This document shows positions 10,904-45,404 of a stretch of DNA of 48,313 nt, one piece after another. The notes under the pieces are model-generated. The model made no database searches and was not told the origin of the DNA. It saw nothing but the letters and a program-made list of their open reading frames with translations. Origin of the DNA: Flavobacteriia bacterium (lineage in GTDB: Bacteria; Bacteroidota; Bacteroidia; Flavobacteriales; Schleiferiaceae); contig JABXHW010000031.1 of NCBI GenBank assembly GCA_013373425.1, positions 1 through 48,313 on the forward strand, given 5' to 3'. Position 1 is the first letter of the stretch. Every line of letters starts with the position of its first letter. The translations under genes were made by a program, and so were the position numbers.

Positions 10904-11362
10904 ATGGCAGACATCCCCTATAGAAAGAAGTTGGATTTGAGATGGAGTGACATCGACCCCAACATGCACATGCGTCATTCTGTGTATTACGACTTTGGTG
11001 CGGCTTTGAGAACTGAAATCATGAATGCGTTGGGCTTGAGCATGAAGGTGTTTGCTCAAGAGAAAGTTGGACCTGTGCTCTTCAAAGAAGAATGCGTGTT
11101 CCGAAAAGAGATTCACTTTGGCGATGAGATCTATATCGACTTTGAGCTTATTGGCGCGTCTAGGGATTCAGAACGCTTCGCATTTCGTCACCGCTTCACC
11201 AAAGAAGATGGAACGCTCTGCGCGGTTCTCACTCTGAATGGCGCATGGATGGACACCGTAAAGCGCAAACTCACCCCTCCCCCTCAAATCATGGTGGATT
11301 CCTTTAGCAGAATTCATAAAGCGGAGGAGTTTGAGTGGATTGAGACGAGTAAGACGAGATAG
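10904..11362 (+). CDS. Acyl-CoA thioesterase (hotdog fold, 4HBT type)
   Basis: The 152-aa protein has the hotdog thioesterase signature RWSDIDPNMHMRHSVYYDF (residues ~12-30), in which the Asp of DIDPN is the expected catalytic acid of the 4-hydroxybenzoyl-CoA thioesterase class. Such proteins hydrolyse acyl-CoA or acyl-ACP thioesters in the cytosol. The acyl group is not predictable. It is divergent from the esterase gene with only 41 bp between starts. A -7-like TATCTTGT lies about 15 nt before the ATG. The stop codon runs directly into a phased AGAYNNNN repeat array. Confidence 0.85.
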   Translation: MADIPYRKKLDLRWSDIDPNMHMRHSVYYDFGAALRTEIMNALGLSMKVFAQEKVGPVLFKEECVFRKEIHFGDEIYIDFELIGASRDSERFAFRHRFTKEDGTLCAVLTLNGAWMDTVKRKLTPPPQIMVDSFSRIHKAEEFEWIETSKTR

Positions 11363-11448
11363 ATTTTTAGATTAATAGATTGATAGACTTTGGGAGGATT
11401 GGACTGAGATATTGTTAGACTTTGGGAGGACGCAAAGCCCAGATTTCT
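11361..11448. repeat. Phased octamer array AGAYNNNN
   Basis: AGAT/AGAC/GGAC words start at 11361, 11369, 11377, 11385, 11401, 11417 and 11441, all on the same 8-bp register; the units at 11393, 11409, 11425 and 11433 have decayed. The 14-mer AGACTTTGGGAGGA occurs twice. The array starts inside the thioesterase stop codon. Confidence 0.6.
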
Positions 11449-11559: not shown

Positions 11560-11617
11560 AGTATCCAGTATCTGGTATTGAGTATTCTCGCCTACCTGCG
11601 CTCCTGCGCTCCTGCCC
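11560..11617. repeat. Phased heptamer array AGTATYN followed by octamer array TCCTGCSC
   Basis: Four consecutive heptamers AGTATCC, AGTATCT, GGTATTG, AGTATTC occupy 11560-11587. After TCTCGCC come octamers ACCTGCGC (11594), TCCTGCGC (11602) and TCCTGCCC (11610). The same two modules, with the octamer in the opposite orientation, recur in the gap after ffs at 26.0-26.3 kb. Confidence 0.6.
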
Positions 11618-11624
11618 ACGTACC

Positions 11625-11653
11625 AAAAAAAAGGCCAGCTTTCGCCGACCTTT
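11625..11653 (-). terminator. Terminator of the YceI gene
   Basis: On the minus strand a 10-bp stem AAAGGTCGGC/GCTGGCCTTT (two G-U pairs) closes a GAAA tetraloop and runs into eight T. It lies 35 nt downstream of the YceI stop. Confidence 0.85.
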
Positions 11654-18162: not shown

Positions 18163-19194
18163 ATGGATGTATCCTCAATAGCAGTAGCCATTCTCAATTG
18201 GAATGGTCAGCCTCTACTGGAACAGTTTCTTGCTAAAGTTGTAGCCGACAGTGGCAATGCAGAAATCATCTTAATTGATAATGCCAGCACTGATTCATCT
18301 GTGGCTTGGTTGAAGTCAAATCACCCGAGCATCCGATTGATTCAACTCAACGATAATTCTGGCTATGCAGGGGGATATAATGAAGCGCTAAAGCAGATTG
18401 ATGCTGAGTACGTTGTTCTGCTAAACAGCGATGTTGAAACTACTGAAGGTTGGCTAGAACCACTTTTGGAGCGATTCACATCAGATGAGAGAATCGCAGC
18501 CATTCAACCTAAAATTAGAGCCTACCACGACAAAGGTTCCTTTGAGTACGCAGGAGCCAGCGGTGGGTTTGTGGATCATCTTGGCTATCCCTTTTGTAGA
18601 GGTCGAATATTCGATCATCTGGAAAAAGACAACGGTCAGTATGACGACGCCATGCCTGTCTTTTGGTCGACAGGTGCTTGCCTTGCTGTTCGCAATTCGG
18701 CATATAAGCAAGTTGGAGGACTCGATCCTCAGTTCTTCGCTCACATGGAAGAGATCGATTTATGCTGGAGGTTCATGCGACACGGTTATACCAATTGGGT
18801 AGAGCCGAAAAGTGTGGTGTATCATGTTGGTGGCGGGACACTCTCCAGTGTGAGCAGTAAGAAGACCTATCTGAATTTTAGAAACAACCTTATTCTACTG
18901 ACGAAGAACCTTCCTACTTCGAAGCTATTTCCAACCATCCTTGCACGCCTTGTTCTAGACGGCATGGCTGGAATTCAGTTCATTCTAAAAGGGAAGATGT
19001 CGCATACAGTAGCGATTCTGAAAGCCCACTTCCATTTCTATGGGAGATATGGAAAGTTGATGGCTGCGCGACGAGGAGAATGCTTTCCTTGGCCATTGAA
19101 TGGCGTGTATCAGAAAAGTATAGTTCGTCAAGTATTTATGGGAGGAGTGAAGACTTTTGAGCAACTCGACTCAAAATCATTTTCTCGTCGATAG
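18163..19194 (+). CDS. Glycosyltransferase family 2 (rhamnosyltransferase-like)
   Basis: The 343-aa protein starts VSSIAVAILNWNGQPLLEQF, the N-terminal nucleotide-binding strand of a GT-A fold. A metal-binding acidic motif is in LLNSDVETTEGWL (Asp of NSD), followed by ACLAVRNSAYKQVGGLD and FAHMEEIDLCWRF (catalytic base region EEID). This pattern is that of cytosolic GT2 enzymes of the RfbN/WbbL type that add sugars to envelope glycans. The gene starts 3 nt after the GWxTD stop and overlaps aroQ (convergent) by 18 nt. Confidence 0.9.
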   Translation: MDVSSIAVAILNWNGQPLLEQFLAKVVADSGNAEIILIDNASTDSSVAWLKSNHPSIRLIQLNDNSGYAGGYNEALKQIDAEYVVLLNSDVETTEGWLEPLLERFTSDERIAAIQPKIRAYHDKGSFEYAGASGGFVDHLGYPFCRGRIFDHLEKDNGQYDDAMPVFWSTGACLAVRNSAYKQVGGLDPQFFAHMEEIDLCWRFMRHGYTNWVEPKSVVYHVGGGTLSSVSSKKTYLNFRNNLILLTKNLPTSKLFPTILARLVLDGMAGIQFILKGKMSHTVAILKAHFHFYGRYGKLMAARRGECFPWPLNGVYQKSIVRQVFMGGVKTFEQLDSKSFSRR

Positions 19195-19602
19195 GCAGTA
19201 ATCGATAGCCATCGCATAACCTTCCAATCCAAAACCACTCAACGTTGCATCTGCTTTTGTGGCGGTAATAGAGTGATGACGATACTCTTCGCGGTTGAAG
19301 ATGTGACTGATGTGAACCTCGATAATTTTTGCAGGGACCATGGAGATGGCATCTGCAATGGCGATGCTCGTGTGTGAGTACCCAGCGGCATTGAGAATCA
19401 CATAATCGCAATCGAATCCTGCACGCTGAATCTGTGAAACGAGTTCACCTTCGCTATTGCTCTGAAAACAGCTCAAATCCACATCAGAGAAGCGTTGATG
19501 AAGCCTCTCAAAGTAGGTTTCAAAGCTCTCATTCCCATAAATTTCAGGCTCTCTTCTACCGAGTAGATTGAGGTTCGGACCGTTGATGATTTGGATTTTC
19601 AT
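19177..19602 (-). CDS. aroQ: Type II 3-dehydroquinate dehydratase
   Basis: From ATG 19602 the product is 141 aa; a longer ORF to 19623 would overlap the -7 box. The sequence MKIQIINGPNLNLLGRREPE carries the type II DHQase signature, with Tyr22 (IYG) as the catalytic tyrosine and Arg17 in its neighbourhood. The EVHISHIFNREEYRHHS block holds the catalytic His. It removes water from 3-dehydroquinate in the shikimate pathway as a dodecamer in the cytosol. The 3' end overlaps the glycosyltransferase gene on the other strand. The -7 box TATCTTTG at 19621-19628 gives a leader of about 15 nt. Confidence 0.95.
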   Translation of the reverse strand: MKIQIINGPNLNLLGRREPEIYGNESFETYFERLHQRFSDVDLSCFQSNSEGELVSQIQRAGFDCDYVILNAAGYSHTSIAIADAISMVPAKIIEVHISHIFNREEYRHHSITATKADATLSGFGLEGYAMAIDYCLSTRK

Positions 19603-25878: not shown

Positions 25879-25886
25879 TACCTTTG
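25879..25886 (+). promoter_or_regulatory. -7 box of ffs
   Basis: TACCTTTG, an exact match, ends 4 nt before the inferred 5' end of the SRP RNA. It calibrates box-to-start-site distance for this genome. Confidence 0.7.
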
Positions 25887-25890
25887 CAGC

Positions 25891-25986
25891 GGGCAAGTCT
25901 CATACAACCAGCTCCTGGTGAACTCCCCCAGGTCCGGAAGGAAGCAAGGGTATCTGGTCGAGCGGTGTGATATGAGGAGCTTGCCC
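25891..25986 (+). ncRNA. ffs: Signal recognition particle RNA, small 4.5S type
   Basis: About 96 nt. The apical region GGTGAACTCCCCCAGG plus GGTCCGGAAGGAAGCAAGG is the conserved SRP domain IV with the GGAA-type tetraloop and symmetric/asymmetric loops that bind Ffh. The outer stem pairs GGGCAAG (25891-25897) with CTTGCCC (25980-25986), then TCTCATA with TATGAGG. Seven T follow (25987-25993), giving an intrinsic terminator. The RNA works with Ffh and FtsY to target membrane proteins. The ends are set by pairing and could be off by a few bases. Confidence 0.93.
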
Positions 25987-26018
25987 TTTTTTTGTGCCCT
26001 AAAGTGTGGGTATCGGTA

Positions 26019-26050
26019 GGCAGGAACGCGAGAGCGCAGGTGGGCAGGTG
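26019..26050. repeat. Phased octamer array NGCAGGNN, copy 1
   Basis: Consecutive octamers GGCAGGAA, CGCGAGAG, CGCAGGTG, GGCAGGTG. They share the core of the reverse-complement array at 11594-11617. Confidence 0.55.
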
Positions 26051-26102
26051 CAGACTTAATCACGTTTCCATATCACTCTAGTATTTAGTGTCTTCAGAGG
26101 AA

Positions 26103-26134
26103 GGCAGGAGCCCGAGAGCGCAGGTTCGGAGGAA
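26103..26134. repeat. Phased octamer array NGCAGGNN, copy 2
   Basis: Octamers GGCAGGAG, CCCGAGAG, CGCAGGTT, CGGAGGAA. The first three units match copy 1 with only three differences. Confidence 0.55.
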
Positions 26135-26156
26135 TCAACATAAGCACGTCAGCGCT

Positions 26157-26184
26157 AGTATTGAGTATTCAGTATTGAGCATCT
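26157..26184. repeat. Phased heptamer array AGTATTN
   Basis: Heptamers AGTATTG, AGTATTC, AGTATTG, AGCATCT. The same family as 11560-11587. Confidence 0.6.
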
Positions 26185-26243
26185 GCCCAGGGCTACATCA
26201 CCCCAACAGCCGAACATTCCTCAACTCGAGTTAGTTTGCACCC

Positions 26244-26271
26244 AGTACCTAGTACCTAGTACTCAGTACCT
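26244..26271. repeat. Phased heptamer array AGTACYN
   Basis: Heptamers AGTACCT, AGTACCT, AGTACTC, AGTACCT, ending 10 nt before the transaldolase -7 box. Confidence 0.65.
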
Positions 26272-27045: not shown

Positions 27046-27125
27046 GTGTGGGGACGTGCGTACGGATGGGAGAAGGGACGTAAATCGACGTGGTTCAGGA
27101 ATATGAGAACAAAGGCACGCTCCAA

Positions 27126-27173
27126 ACCTCAACACATCAACACCTCAACACTTCGCTAATTCCACACTTCGCC
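27126..27173. repeat. Phased octamer array ACNTCNAC
   Basis: Six consecutive octamers: ACCTCAAC, ACATCAAC, ACCTCAAC, ACTTCGCT, AATTCCAC, ACTTCGCC. They lie just upstream of the YciO/Sua5 promoter box (TATCTTTA at 27188-27195). Confidence 0.6.
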
Positions 27174-27215
27174 ACGCGCCCATTTCCTATCTTTACTTCA
27201 CAACTCACACTTCAC

Positions 27216-41505: not shown

Positions 41506-41578
41506 AATATTGCTATTCAACGGATAGTGCACCCTAACGGTACGATGCTTGAGAGCGTTATATCAAAAACTACCTTTC

Positions 41579-43459
41579 ATGATACACGCGTTCTACCTTG
41601 CTGCCATCCTCACTTTGTCATCTCCCCATGTCCCTGACCTAGTCCCGTTTCAAGAAGGTGGTCTTTGGGGATACAAGAATTGGCAGAACGAGTGGGTTAT
41701 CGAGCCTCAGTTCCACGCAGCATTTGAGTTTTCAGATGGTATTGCTACGGTCAGACAGAATGGATACTACCAGTTCATTGATGAAAACGGACAGAGACTG
41801 AACACCGACCCGACGGCTTACGACTTTGCTCACCCTTATCACGATGAGCGCTGTATAGCCCATATCGACGAAGGATATGTACTCTTGAATGAAGACTTAG
41901 GTATTATCACGGACGGGGCTTATGACCTCTTATCCAATCACGGTAAATTCTACTTAGCCAATCGAGAAAACGAGTACTTCATATTGGATTCAAACGGAGA
42001 AGAGATAGACGGTCCGTTTACTGGGCAGTTTGTTCAGCTACCGGCGGATGACAGGTATCTCCTAAACATCCTAGTTGAGGGGGAGTGGCGAACTCAACTG
42101 AAATCCACTGAAGGTGAAGTTCTATTGGAGACTTTGGAATCTCACCATGGTCACAGTACCGATCATCTCTTAACTATGAGCTACGAGAACGGATATCCGA
42201 CACTACATGTCTATACCATGGATGGCGACAAGCTGTTTGATGTTTCGGGAAGTTCTTTCGATGTAAACAACGTGGAGTTCTACGGTTTCCCGATGATCAT
42301 TGAGAAGTACGAGCGACAAGCTGAAAGTCCAAATGAGCTATACAATCTGCCGAAGCACTATGCCACTCTTTCAAGCAGGGCAAAGGTTACGGAACTGAGT
42401 AGTGAATGGGAATTCATCTCCCCTATTCAAAACGAACGATGTGTGGGTCAGCATGTAGACGGTGGATATTTCTTATTAGATGAGGAAGGGCAAGTTGTGA
42501 ACAAGCAGTCCTTCAGGGATTTTAGATTGCTGCAATTCCATCACACTCAACTGCTTTCAAACGGAACAGACATCACTCGAACGAATGATGGATGGGCCTT
42601 AATCGATGAAGATGGCAACACGTTACTTACTTGTCCAAGTGAGGAAGTTGACCAGCTCAGGAATTACATGCCTGAACGAGGGATGGCCATTTTCACGCAT
42701 CCAGAAAACAACCGCCATTTTCTCATTTGGGTATTGGAAACGAATGAAGTGTTCGGTGTTTACGACCATATTTCACTTGCCTATTCAAACGAGTATATCA
42801 TGGTTCAAAATGAGCACTACACGGAGTACATCTCCAGAAATGGCCAGCGAATTTCTCATCCAAAGTGGATTGCTCCAGTTCCCATGAATATTGATGCAAA
42901 GATGGATGCAGTTGTTCATGTAGGTTCACCTCCACTGAAAGGCTTGAACGCGATTGAAGGATGGGCTAATTCGGAAAACATCTTCACTCCTTATGCTGCG
43001 GCTAACCCATCATCAGGTAATCATGTATTGATTTCAGATCCCGAAGTTCATGAAGATTATCCCATTTCAACTTCAAGATTGGTTGAGTTTATCAACTTAT
43101 CATCTGACACTTTAATCGCAAGCGTACAAGACAGTCGGCTACATGCTGTGATAGAAGCAAAAAATGAAGAGGGCGAATGGGTTTCTATTCAAACGTATCG
43201 TAGTTCTTGGTGCGGAAACAGTTATCATCATGTTTACCTCCCTCCTGGAAATGAGTGGACATGGCGGATTCCTGAATTCGAAGGAGGAATGAAAACAGAA
43301 TTGCGCGTTGCCATCTACAATGTCATGACGTGGGAAAACGGGGAACATTCTGAGCCCTTCAACATTTTCAGCGAGCCCTATAAAGGCAGCATCAATCCAG
43401 CACAACTTTGGAGGGAGAACCAGTATTCGCAAAGAGGGTTGATGCATCCTTATTTATAG
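41579..43459 (+). CDS. WG-repeat secreted protein 2
   Basis: From ATG 41579 the product is 626 aa, with a signal peptide (MIHAFYLAAILTLSSPHVP). A TTG at 41549 would add ten residues and is less likely. WG units are clear at the start (GGLWGYKNWQNEWVIEPQF HAAFEFSDGIATV) and around residue ~340 (DGWALIDEDGNTLL). The C-terminal ~150 residues (ISDPEVHEDYPISTSRLVEFINLSSDTL..., with a His-rich WCGNSYHHVYLPPGNEW) form a separate beta-type domain not recognised. It is not an evident copy of protein 1 beyond the repeats. The stop codon is part of the AGAYNNNN array that follows. Confidence 0.8.
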   Translation: MIHAFYLAAILTLSSPHVPDLVPFQEGGLWGYKNWQNEWVIEPQFHAAFEFSDGIATVRQNGYYQFIDENGQRLNTDPTAYDFAHPYHDERCIAHIDEGYVLLNEDLGIITDGAYDLLSNHGKFYLANRENEYFILDSNGEEIDGPFTGQFVQLPADDRYLLNILVEGEWRTQLKSTEGEVLLETLESHHGHSTDHLLTMSYENGYPTLHVYTMDGDKLFDVSGSSFDVNNVEFYGFPMIIEKYERQAESPNELYNLPKHYATLSSRAKVTELSSEWEFISPIQNERCVGQHVDGGYFLLDEEGQVVNKQSFRDFRLLQFHHTQLLSNGTDITRTNDGWALIDEDGNTLLTCPSEEVDQLRNYMPERGMAIFTHPENNRHFLIWVLETNEVFGVYDHISLAYSNEYIMVQNEHYTEYISRNGQRISHPKWIAPVPMNIDAKMDAVVHVGSPPLKGLNAIEGWANSENIFTPYAAANPSSGNHVLISDPEVHEDYPISTSRLVEFINLSSDTLIASVQDSRLHAVIEAKNEEGEWVSIQTYRSSWCGNSYHHVYLPPGNEWTWRIPEFEGGMKTELRVAIYNVMTWENGEHSEPFNIFSEPYKGSINPAQLWRENQYSQRGLMHPYL

Positions 43460-43497
43460 ACTAACAGATTTTAAGACTGTCGGACTAATCGACACAT
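43458..43497. repeat. Phased octamer array AGAYNNNN
   Basis: Octamers AGACTAAC, AGATTTTA, AGACTGTC, GGACTAAT, CGACACAT run from 43458, starting inside the WG gene stop codon. They are the reverse complement of the NNNNRTCT array that follows. Confidence 0.6.
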
Positions 43498-43506
43498 ATA
43501 CAATTA

Positions 43507-43676
43507 AGGAGTCTGACCGTCTGCTTCTAGAACGCTAGTTGTTCATCTATAAATCTGATGGTCCAATTGTCTCTGAGTCTAACTATCTTTCCTTCAGAAA
43601 GTCTAACTATCTGTCAGTCCGCTAGTCTAATTATCTTTTAGTCTGATAGTCTATTTATCTATCAATCTAACCATCT
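43507..43676. repeat. Long phased octamer array NNNNRTCT
   Basis: From 43541 to 43676 there are 17 consecutive octamers, of which 16 end in RTCT or RTCC (for example AACTATCT twice, GCTAGTCT, AATTATCT, GATAGTCT, ATTTATCT). The first four bases vary. A 24-bp higher-order repeat of GTCTAACTATCT is seen at 43577, 43601, 43625 and 43649. Two further units at 43507-43522 are shifted by 2 bp. Confidence 0.7.
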
Positions 43677-43689
43677 ATAAACCTACCTC

Positions 43690-44562
43690 ATGTCCAACAC
43701 CTCCATTATCATTGAAGAACGCGCCCGCGACATCGGGGATTTCCTTGTAGGTCGACTACTCCCCTTCCGCAAAAAGCGAATGGTGGGTCCGTTCATTTTT
43801 ATCGACCACATGGGGCCTTCAACGATTAAGGAGGGCTCGTATCTTGACATTGGTCAGCATCCTCATATTGGCTTATCCACCCTAACCTACTTGTTTGAAG
43901 GAGAAGCCATTCACCGCGATAGCACAGGAGCAGTTCAGCGAATTACTCCTGGATCTGTGAATTGGATGACCTCAGGCTCTGGTGCAGTTCACACTGAACG
44001 TACGCCAGAAGACCATCGTGATGGAGAAGCGCGAAACATGCATGGATTCCAGATTTGGGTAGCACTTCCGAAGGAGAAGGAGAACATGCCCGCTGAATTT
44101 CACCATATCGCGAAGAACGCATTGCCCGAATGGCAGCAGGACAACCTGACAATCAAGCTCATTGCCGGAGAGGCCTTTGGACGAAAAAGCCCGGTCCCCG
44201 TTCACAGTCACCTTTTCATGCTCAAGGTTCAGGCTGAGGAAGACACTCATTTAGATTTCAACGGAAAACTGGAAGGTGAGATTGGAATAGCAGTAGTTGA
44301 AGGGACTGTCACCGCTTGCGATGAAACTGTGGACAAGGGACAGATGCTCGTTTCCAATGCAGAAGGCAAGTGCGCTTTTCAGGTGGCAAAGGGAAGTCTA
44401 CTTTTAATCTTTGGAGGAAAGCCCTTCCCAGAAGAACGGAACATATGGTGGAACTTTGTCGCCTCAGACCCCGAGACAATTGAAGACGCCAAGAAGCGCT
44501 GGGAGAACGGTGATTTCAAAATGGTGCCAGGCGAAACGGATGTAATTCCGTTGCCGAAGTAG
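43690..44562 (+). CDS. Pirin family protein
   Basis: A 290-aa bicupin. The metal-binding motif is IGQHPHIGLSTLTYLFEGEAIHRDS (about residues 54-78), with His, His and the later HTE in SGAVHTERTP. Pirins bind Fe or another metal; some are quercetin 2,3-dioxygenases. The function here is unknown. Full length for the family. It lies between a phased octamer array and an intergenic stretch, without partner genes. Cytosolic. Confidence 0.93.
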   Translation: MSNTSIIIEERARDIGDFLVGRLLPFRKKRMVGPFIFIDHMGPSTIKEGSYLDIGQHPHIGLSTLTYLFEGEAIHRDSTGAVQRITPGSVNWMTSGSGAVHTERTPEDHRDGEARNMHGFQIWVALPKEKENMPAEFHHIAKNALPEWQQDNLTIKLIAGEAFGRKSPVPVHSHLFMLKVQAEEDTHLDFNGKLEGEIGIAVVEGTVTACDETVDKGQMLVSNAEGKCAFQVAKGSLLLIFGGKPFPEERNIWWNFVASDPETIEDAKKRWENGDFKMVPGETDVIPLPK

Positions 44563-44729
44563 TTGCATACTTCTTTTGCATGACGAGCAATCTCGCTCTC
44601 CAAGTACAGCTTTGATCGGGTAGCGGGAGAGCTATTATGTTGGGGCTACCGCCCCGCCCCAGTCTCAAGTTCCTAATTCTTCTGGAGAACATGGTCAGTT
44701 TCAAAAACTTTCTCAATATCCGCTTTTAG

Positions 44730-44758
44730 AGCCGTACGTAAACGTTTACTTTACGGCT
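44730..44758. repeat. Nested inverted repeat around GTAAACGTTTAC
   Basis: The 12-bp perfect palindrome GTAAACGTTTAC (44738-44749) is nested in AGCCGTA (44730-44736)/TACGGCT (44752-44758). It resembles the sequence near 32706-32725. Operator-like, with no known binder. Confidence 0.4.
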
Positions 44759-44830
44759 ATTCGTGGATGGTTTCGGAACTTTGCGATGGAGGGTGGCTGG
44801 AGGCCGGCCCCTAGTAATTTCCCTCTCCTC

Positions 44831-44878
44831 TACTCATTCACTCATACACCCATACACGTAAACACTCATTCACTCACC
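44831..44878. repeat. Phased octamer array YACYCATN
   Basis: Octamers TACTCATT, CACTCATA, CACCCATA, CACGTAAA, CACTCATT, CACTCACC end 4 nt before the DUF1697 ATG at 44883. No RBS-like purine tract is visible in this pyrimidine-rich leader. Confidence 0.65.
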
Positions 44879-44882
44879 CACC

Positions 44883-45404
44883 ATGATCCACCTCCTACGC
44901 GGCATAAACGTCGGCGGCCACAAGAAAATTCCGAAAGAACAACTCCGTGAGTGTTACGAGCGACTCGGACTCGAAAACGTACGTACGTACATTCAAAGCG
45001 GAAACGTGGTTTTCGATAGTGCGGAAGTCGACAATTCAGCACTAGAAGCTTCCATCAAGGAAGTCACGGGATTTGACGTTCCAGGAATGCTTTTCACCGA
45101 TGAGGAGTGGAAGGAGCTGATGACAAAAGCACCGAATGCGTATGAGGAACTCGACAAAGAGATAAAGAAATACATCACCCTACTCCAACACGAACCGACT
45201 GAAGAGTCGGTGAATGCGCTTCGTGACAAACTCACACCAGAAGAAACACTTTCGCATTACAAGCGCGCTTTGTTTCTGCATTATCCAGCCGACTTAAAGA
45301 AGCCGTTTTTTACCAATGTGGCTTTGGAAAAAACGCTGAAGCAGTCTGGTACGACGCGAAATTGGAATACGATGAAGGCTTTACTGAAGATGATAGGTGA
45401 TTAA
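44883..45404 (+). CDS. DUF1697 family protein
   Basis: A 173-aa protein starting MIHLLRGINVGGHKKIPKEQL with ENVRTYIQSGNVVF, the DUF1697 signature. The family is cytosolic, found widely in Bacteroidota and Actinobacteria, with no established function. Full length. The start is fixed by the signature. Its leader is formed by an octamer array. It overlaps the outer-membrane-like gene by 4 nt, tail to tail. Confidence 0.9.
   Translation: MIHLLRGINVGGHKKIPKEQLRECYERLGLENVRTYIQSGNVVFDSAEVDNSALEASIKEVTGFDVPGMLFTDEEWKELMTKAPNAYEELDKEIKKYITLLQHEPTEESVNALRDKLTPEETLSHYKRALFLHYPADLKKPFFTNVALEKTLKQSGTTRNWNTMKALLKMIGD

Follow-up and report, generated by a model that had tools for sequence, protein, structure and literature searches.

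Short tandem repeats are known from several groups of bacteria, among them the short tandemly repeated repetitive (STRR) heptamers of heterocystous cyanobacteria, of which there are many per genome. The array considered here, a run of octamers between a WG-repeat protein gene and a pirin gene in the genome of a marine member of the Schleiferiaceae (Flavobacteriales; assembly GCA_013373425.1), is of a type already known from other bacteria and represents a variant of that kind within a genome-wide family. The stretch analysed, called the window below, comprises the 48,313 nucleotides of contig JABXHW010000031.1, which is contig 62 of 76 in a genome of 3.09 Mb. The gap between the two genes probably houses an array from an extensive, lineage-restricted family of degenerate intergenic minisatellites; their units measure 7-8 bp, and they would have grown at gene borders by local copying, with a strand bias linked to the border.

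The closest precedents are the G-rich heptamers of Xanthomonas and Nostoc and the TAACTGA heptamers. The former read GGGANTN in Xanthomonas and GGGGA(C/T)T in Nostoc, with positions 1-4 and 6 held and the others free; in Xanthomonas campestris pv. campestris (Xcc) they form scattered, mostly intergenic arrays of 2-26 units, with 70 opposed pairs, and their length and sequence vary between related species, with no function found for them (PMC4692102). The arrays of the present genome share with these heptamers the phased and partly held unit, the intergenic position, the opposed pairs and the purine strand that leaves genes at both ends. Unlike the situation in Xanthomonas and Nostoc, 8-bp units dominate here, the RTCT class to which the array before pirin belongs is not G-rich, and several motif classes share one lean; a 7-bp unit with a G3 or G4 tract is absent from the RTCT class, and only the GGGTACT arrays, which are of the G3N4 form, fit the G-rich heptamers. 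Arrays between divergent genes, described as rare in Xanthomonas, occur here, and inverted pairs are given as few in Nostoc (PMC4692102). The TAACTGA heptamers, found in Beggiatoaceae, cyanobacteria and five Bacteroidetes, are mostly intergenic and stand beside start codons, and in F. litoralis 12 of the 14 sets lie forward ahead of a start codon and one set lies reversed directly after a stop codon (PMC4679880), which fits the edge polarity found here. As in the present genome, relatives may have shorter, repeat-free gaps and contigs often end in repeats (Elizabethkingia), but TAACTGA is a single exact motif of 7 bp with little degeneracy. A minisatellite within a dispersed intergenic element of a Bacteroidota species is provided by the BrickBuilt miniature inverted-repeat transposable element (MITE) of Porphyromonas gingivalis, which resembles the palindrome-plus-octamer units of Phaeocystidibacter luteus discussed below and differs in its 23-nt unit, its 19 occurrences and its leader and tail with small inverted ends (PMC4596501).

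The gap between the WG-repeat gene and pirin

Both genes flanking the gap lie on the + strand. With the purine form of an array called GA and the pyrimidine form TC, the locus is composed as follows.

41549..43459, + strand: WG-repeat protein gene (WG_beta_rep, PF14903), whose TAG stop codon forms part of an array
43458..43497, - strand: opposed GA-form array of 5 units, leaving the WG-repeat gene and pairing with the main array in the predicted fold
43498..43540, no strand: stretch between the arms, mostly out of register
43541..43676, + strand: main octamer array of 17 units NNNNRTCY (TC form, entering pirin)
43677..43689, + strand: short remainder from the array end to the pirin start codon
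43690..44562, + strand: pirin gene (PF02678, PF05726)

The unit list bears out the original prediction, which was made from the letters alone, in that 17 consecutive octamers follow one another at 43541-43676 without a slip and 16 of them end in RTCT or RTCC, the sole exception being TTCCTTCA. For the left arm the earlier description overstated both length and regularity: of the five units read as AGAYNNNN at 43458-43497, three are strictly AGAY (AGACTAAC, AGATTTTA and AGACTGTC) and two begin with GGAC and CGAC, the first AG of this arm being within the stop codon of the WG-repeat gene (43457-43459). Nor do the arrays fill the whole gap, as had been supposed, since the stretch between the arms is mostly out of register; it contains two RTCT octamers, at about 43510-43525, that are in another phase. 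Superimposed on the octamers of the main array is a period of 24 bp, which Tandem Repeats Finder (TRF) places at 43576-43664 with 3.7 copies and a score of 87, the top score in the window; the lag-24 identity in this segment is 0.78, and the lag-8 identity in 43601-43680 is 0.58.

The suggestion that the opposed GA and TC arms can pair agrees with the predicted fold of the gap RNA (-50.1 kcal/mol; z -2.75, equalled by 2 of 200 shuffles), and the corresponding DNA fold has a z of -2.06, with 7 of 200 shuffles as good. A scan for intrinsic terminators (GC-rich stem plus T run) found none in the gap, the sole site being inside pirin, and the motif TAnnTTTG occurs nowhere in the gap. The array had been held not to be a CRISPR, and its 8-bp units, without a long repeat or the 25-40 bp repeats and unique spacers of such loci, agree with this, cas genes not having been searched for. 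It is probably neither a control element of pirin nor a machine of its own, and a function specific to pirin is unlikely.

Strand polarity across the family of arrays

Arrays of this kind are many, belong to several motif classes, lie at gene borders, range from perfect to strongly degraded, decay unevenly and are mostly oriented with the purine strand outward. They were sampled over 824,538 bases of this genome, where arrays with a lag of 7 or 8 occur in 49 of 491 gaps, so that the gap before pirin is not the special case for which it had been taken. The strongest regularity, which the original prediction had missed, is the strand polarity relative to gene edges: irrespective of gene orientation, the GA form mostly leaves genes and the TC form mostly enters them, the outgoing strand being purine-rich as viewed from either gene end. 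In all 11 gaps with both forms, GA stands on the left and TC on the right. Among the 35 single-form gaps, the TC form lies on the right in 17 and on the left in 3, and the GA form on the right in 2 and on the left in 13 (Fisher 3e-5), the remaining 3 of the 49 gaps having no clear form. When lag 9 is added, the two-form gaps conform in 10 of 10, with right and left counts of 18 and 5 for TC and of 2 and 12 for GA in the single-form gaps.

A bias of open reading frame (ORF) calling is rejected as the cause, since the signal persists with trimmed genes. Of 91 array parts, 6 in coding sequence and 11 that were not flanked by genes on both sides were left out of the count; among the 74 that remained, 61 follow the polarity (37 of 46 at trailer edges and 24 of 28 at leader edges; p=1.4e-8), while opposed neighbours read GA then TC in 12 of 12. 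General gap composition is likewise rejected: between 100 and 1200 bp, gaps with arrays lean GA-left in 44 cases and the opposite way in 9, compared with 64 and 65 for gaps of this size without arrays (p=0.92, n=140). All motif classes lean one way save GTATY, the numbers following and violating the polarity being 12 and 2 for TCYR-GTCC, 9 and 3 for CCTGC, 5 and 0 for CACYAG, 3 and 0 each for GTACY and ACRY, 1 and 0 for CAACAC, 1 and 1 for GTATY and 11 and 4 for the rest. As a single rule covers leaders and trailers, the direction of transcription alone cannot produce the polarity; in P. luteus it is followed by 46 of 66 parts (p=0.0019). No statement of such a rule across motif classes was found in the open-access text searched, and the seven papers that came up for this genus are, judged by their titles, not about repeats.

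The lag-8 signal, for which the original prediction had asked a comparison with shuffled sequence, was set against Markov-2 simulations over 424,538 bases of this genome. Segments scoring at least 12 numbered 28 at lag 8 and 9 at lag 7, against 0 simulated at either lag; when the simulation was repeated, the counts were 0 for lag 8 and 1 for lag 7, and smaller excesses at lags 6, 9 and 12 may be due to coding repeats. The octamer classes include GTCTRWYA, GTCCAGTA, CCTGCGYN, TCACYAGN, TCAACACN, ACTCATNC and CGTCCCCA, and the heptamer classes of the same genome include GTACYCA and AGTATYC; a universal TC dinucleotide was considered and rejected, TC being the top phased dinucleotide in only 11 of 45 arrays. 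With head-to-tail units above chance and with no more than the 6 coding parts among the 91, the arrays have the properties of intergenic short-unit minisatellites (simple sequence repeats, SSR, of 6-9 nt). Their copy number before pirin is 17 units here, 4 in P. luteus and 0 in the third genome of the genus that was compared (G001), a comparison which is between species only.

Perfect arrays occur alongside degraded ones, and the set of families changes from one species to the next, as follows from a search for GTACCCA x3 (21 bases, at most 3 mismatches) with 129 matches here, 1 in G001 and 0 in P. luteus (G002), the reversed control having 0 matches in all three genomes. At the contig starts, 53 of which were inspected out of 76 (one masked), an array begins within 12 bases of the start in 15; 11 of the 15 are of the GTACCCA type and one is (AGCTCACC)n. 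Near-perfect arrays in such positions probably break the assembly and would help to explain why assemblies of such genomes are fragmented. Contig-start arrays have no left gene and are therefore outside the polarity counts. Nine of the 12 in Y form overlap the following open frame or end at most 25 bp from it, with one of them entirely within the frame, and the remaining three are at 62, 110 and 171 bp. Of the R-form arrays, two are clear and lie 282 and 377 bp away, and a third row labelled R has C and G in equal number.

Unit decay, relatives and rival explanations

In the window array, the variance of the per-phase identity is 0.066, compared with 0.015 under equal decay, and none of 400 simulations was as high; the identities are 0.94, 1.00 and 0.83 for the phases T, C and T and 0.44-0.50 for the remaining five. 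The same test was applied to octamer arrays of at least 7 units chosen by lag alone, dropping duplicates and arrays with a mean phase identity above 0.9 and keeping coding ones. Decay was uneven at p<0.05 in 10 of 24 arrays here and in 5 of 23 in P. luteus (Fisher combined p of 1.8e-6 and 7.3e-6), an earlier simulation having given 8 of 16 rows, with the window array counted twice among them. The equal decay of neutral slippage plus mutation is thus not what is seen, and the unequal decay across unit positions makes the array a variant and not a plain microsatellite. Of the selection on RTCT that had been proposed, the part that stands is that half of the unit is held beyond equal decay; this falls short of selection itself, the comparison comprising one orthologous pair of RTCT-type arrays, that at pirin. 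The first four bases, described as nearly free, instead show an R-W-N-A pattern over the arrays: in 100 core units from 12 arrays, numbered from the first base of the core, position 5 is A or G in 92%, position 6 is A or T in 92% and position 8 is A or T in 86%, with information of 0.69, 0.62, 0.22 and 0.59 bits at positions 5-8, the values for positions 1-4 being inflated in this count since the search demanded the core.

The closest relative with a name that was found is P. luteus; the pirin of the window is 80% identical to its pirin, the best among the 80 loci kept, a listing from which records of very near genomes may be absent. Upstream of pirin, P. luteus has four consecutive TCYA octamers that share the window core, and G001 has no octamers; as such chains were found by searching for the core, its constancy inside them is by construction. 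When 1 mismatch was allowed, two of the 88 family genomes contained the RTCT pattern, with 21 and 15 matches (reversed control, 2 in this genome and 1 in one other); the exact pattern occurred in 3 of the 395 genomes available for the order, compared with a single match, in this genome, for its reversed form. The third member of the genus had no match to the pattern, and no RTCT arrays were seen in 19 stretches, each at most 20 kb long, of genomes belonging to other genera. The gap between the 4HBT and YceI genes measures 325 bp here, compared with about 70-75 bp between the aligned coding ends in both relatives; the extra DNA, with its GA, heptamer and CCTGC arrays, lies after the stop codon and ahead of a terminator-like hairpin that by eye is present in all three genomes. 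On the right side of the TAL-Sua5 gap, TC-form 8-mers here correspond to TC-form 7-mers of other sequence in P. luteus; on the left, the GA form was scored in P. luteus and is here a purine-rich stretch by eye only. G001 has its own 7- and 9-bp arrays (GGRTGAY and TTTAAGRTG; L207:11950-12598 and L213), octamers being scarce in the 200 kb read, and a relative from another family of the order has intergenic arrays of a TAAACTC heptamer and a TAATCYGCG 9-mer (L322:1322 and 10286).

Under the favoured reading, a short seed at a gene border would grow by local copying, through replication slippage or unequal exchange, after which point mutation would degrade the array while single units or multi-unit blocks, such as the 24 bp in the window, would be recopied; in P. 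luteus, arrays may also have spread within a dispersed palindromic element. The strand rule might arise if growth or survival of an array depended on how its strands are oriented towards the gene edge. Purine-rich RNA that runs out of the gene, by read-through at 3' ends or as antisense at 5' ends, could for instance open the duplex and promote slippage; alternatively, wrongly oriented arrays might be purged. A need for the unusual way of making the array that had been suggested is not supported: near-perfect arrays of the same kind exist, and neighbouring units in P. luteus are alike, as under local copying. The similarity of the variable halves there is 0.63 at distance 1, 0.38 at distance 6 or more and 0.46 between arrays, and for the wider TCYR set of the present genome the values are 0.43 for units at distance 1 and 0.35 for units of different arrays. 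Local copying is evident in P. luteus and invisible in the RTCT class of this genome, for which, together with the border-linked bias, it is proposed by inference. Several observations weigh against this reading. The variable halves of the RTCT class here are equally alike within and between arrays (0.42 and 0.42), which argues against recent local copying, and a held core is not predicted by equal-decay slippage. The polarity is broken by 13 of 74 parts here (10 of 55 arrays by class count) and by 20 of 66 in P. luteus, where opposed neighbours follow it in 2 of 3; in G001, 11 of 16 parts conform, which is not significant, as do 1 of 2 opposed neighbours. The cause proposed for the polarity is itself uncertain.

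A sequence-specific DNA- or RNA-binding protein that reads the TCYR core at 8-base steps, with selection keeping the core while the rest drifts, would account for the uneven decay with its low pooled p values and for the occurrence of the core in arrays of both this genome and P. luteus, including, in the core-based search, the four TCYA units before pirin. Such a protein is nevertheless an unlikely explanation, in view of the many classes with other cores and of the 7-bp spacing in the same genome, of the lack of a match to the RTCT pattern in G001 and of orthologous gaps without an array; that the polarity extends across motif classes, both gene edges and any orientation points to a border-linked process and away from a motif-specific binding protein. 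Less probable is the possibility that the arrays act as bidirectional transcription insulators, pyrimidine-rich RNA being ended before a gene through Rho at YC dinucleotides or through hairpins of the GA and TC arms. The TC form does mostly face genes, and TAnnTTTG, where present at a leader array (5 of 17), always stands on the downstream side of it (5 of 5), in 3 cases strictly ahead of the called start codon. The phased YC frequency exceeds the column-permuted control in P. luteus (0.93 and 0.77) but barely does so here (0.80 and 0.74), where CY performs better (0.83 and 0.73); CY and TY also exceed the control in P. luteus, and the same dinucleotide test showed nothing in G001. YC phasing is not a clear Rho signature. 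As to hairpins, besides the window gap, four two-form gaps fold better than their shuffles (z of -4.64 in L040, -3.13 in a gap of L301, -2.76 in L303 and -2.39 in L039), but the others do so little or not at all (-1.83, -1.04, -0.35, -0.02 and +1.30), so that fold-back is not a general rule; moreover, a terminator-like hairpin is, by eye, kept beside one array, and the scan of the window gap found none.

The view that the arrays are parts of mobile non-autonomous elements, similar to repetitive extragenic palindromic (REP) sequences or to MITEs, with the polarity coming from the inverted build of the element, is rather improbable, if marginally less so than that of insulators. It can appeal to an element of P. 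luteus that begins with the palindrome TCCCGA...TCGGGA and has 78 matches, since 42 of 58 octamer chains there abut it on the same strand, a count from biased sampling that becomes 13 of 18 when contiguous runs only (20 stretches) are used; the chains often lie 25 bases past one palindrome and 2 ahead of the next. A composite element with 30 matches in the present genome, made up of GCAGG octamers, AGTATT heptamers, a spacer of about 45 bp and GTACCC heptamers, also agrees with it, and arrays may thus be able to travel with dispersed elements. The palindromic element, however, has 0 matches in this genome and in G001, the arms within one gap are often of different motif classes, and no target-site duplication was established. 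Genes of the Y1_Tnp family are present in two genomes; the 3.3-kb loci around the four Y1 transposase genes contained neither palindrome nor array by the scans used, and a link to REP-associated tyrosine transposases (RAYT) is doubtful. By far the least credible is a telomerase-like writer, for instance a DRT10-type reverse transcriptase, that would add purine-strand repeats to 3' ends at breaks which are later joined. The polarity would then correspond to outward 3' extension with opposed fused ends, and DRT10 is described as making tandem-repeat DNA with a noncoding RNA (PMC12632851). A reverse transcriptase gene does exist in this genome (RVT_1, 66.8 bits; L305, G000:C44:19007-19552), but no such match was obtained in G001 or in P. 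luteus, the latter of which has the octamers in common with this genome, and the many motif classes would demand many templates; as the writer it was rejected.

Beyond this genus, it is conceivable, albeit doubtful, that a general and sequence-flexible process makes or keeps 7-8 bp repeats at gene edges in some bacteria, with the purine strand outward at both gene ends, and that the unexplained arrays known from Xanthomonas, Nostoc and Bacteroidota obey this rule as well. Heptamer arrays have so far been reported motif by motif in unrelated bacteria and without explanation; if the proposal were true, a single mechanism, linked either to transcription or to the synthesis of 3' ends in the outward direction, would have produced those of all three groups. 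Among the present findings it is the strand rule that deserves pursuit; it makes strand-specific growth or purging of repeats at gene edges testable.

Other arrays and dispersed elements

Further arrays in the window are the following.

11357..11420, - strand: RTCT-class array in GA form on the + strand, with the core in 6 of 8 units, overlapping the stop codon of the 4HBT thioesterase gene
11595..11626, + strand: CCTGCGYN octamer array on the TC side of the 4HBT-YceI gap, adjoining the terminator-like hairpin
26015..26050, - strand: GCAGGNNN octamer array, GA form, on the left side of its gap
26157..26182, no strand: AGTATTN heptamer array
26238..26269, + strand: GTACYCA heptamer array, Y form, on the right side of the gap
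27120..27175, + strand: TCAACACN octamer array within the opening 30 codons of the Sua5/YrdC ORF as listed
44825..44881, + strand: ACTCATNC octamer array ending 1 bp ahead of the DUF1697 start codon

The Pfam match of the Sua5/YrdC ORF starts only at residue 65, which suggests that its true start may be further downstream. An example of the composite element is found at L049:7500-7660, with 29 other matches, and window 26030-26270 is similar to it. The units of P. luteus that carry the palindrome (L199:19150-19710, L198 and L343) are about 93 bp long and consist of the palindrome TCCCGAATCGGC..CGCCTCTCGGGA, 25 nt and TCYRNNNN octamers. In a comparison by eye of window 41549-44882 with L199 and L200, the WG-repeat gene precedes pirin here and a similar-looking gene follows pirin in P. 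luteus, with arrays on both sides, as if the arrays marked points of rearrangement. Another dispersed non-coding repeat, present at L047:17407-17664 and 18968-19321 (112 bp, 84% identical between the two copies), has a 31-bp piece in the gap after pirin (window 44533-44912). Upstream of the transaldolase gene, window 25884-25990 (+ strand) encodes a Bacteroidales small signal recognition particle (SRP) RNA (RF04183, 91.7 bits), and a near-identical sequence is present in the corresponding gap of both relatives.

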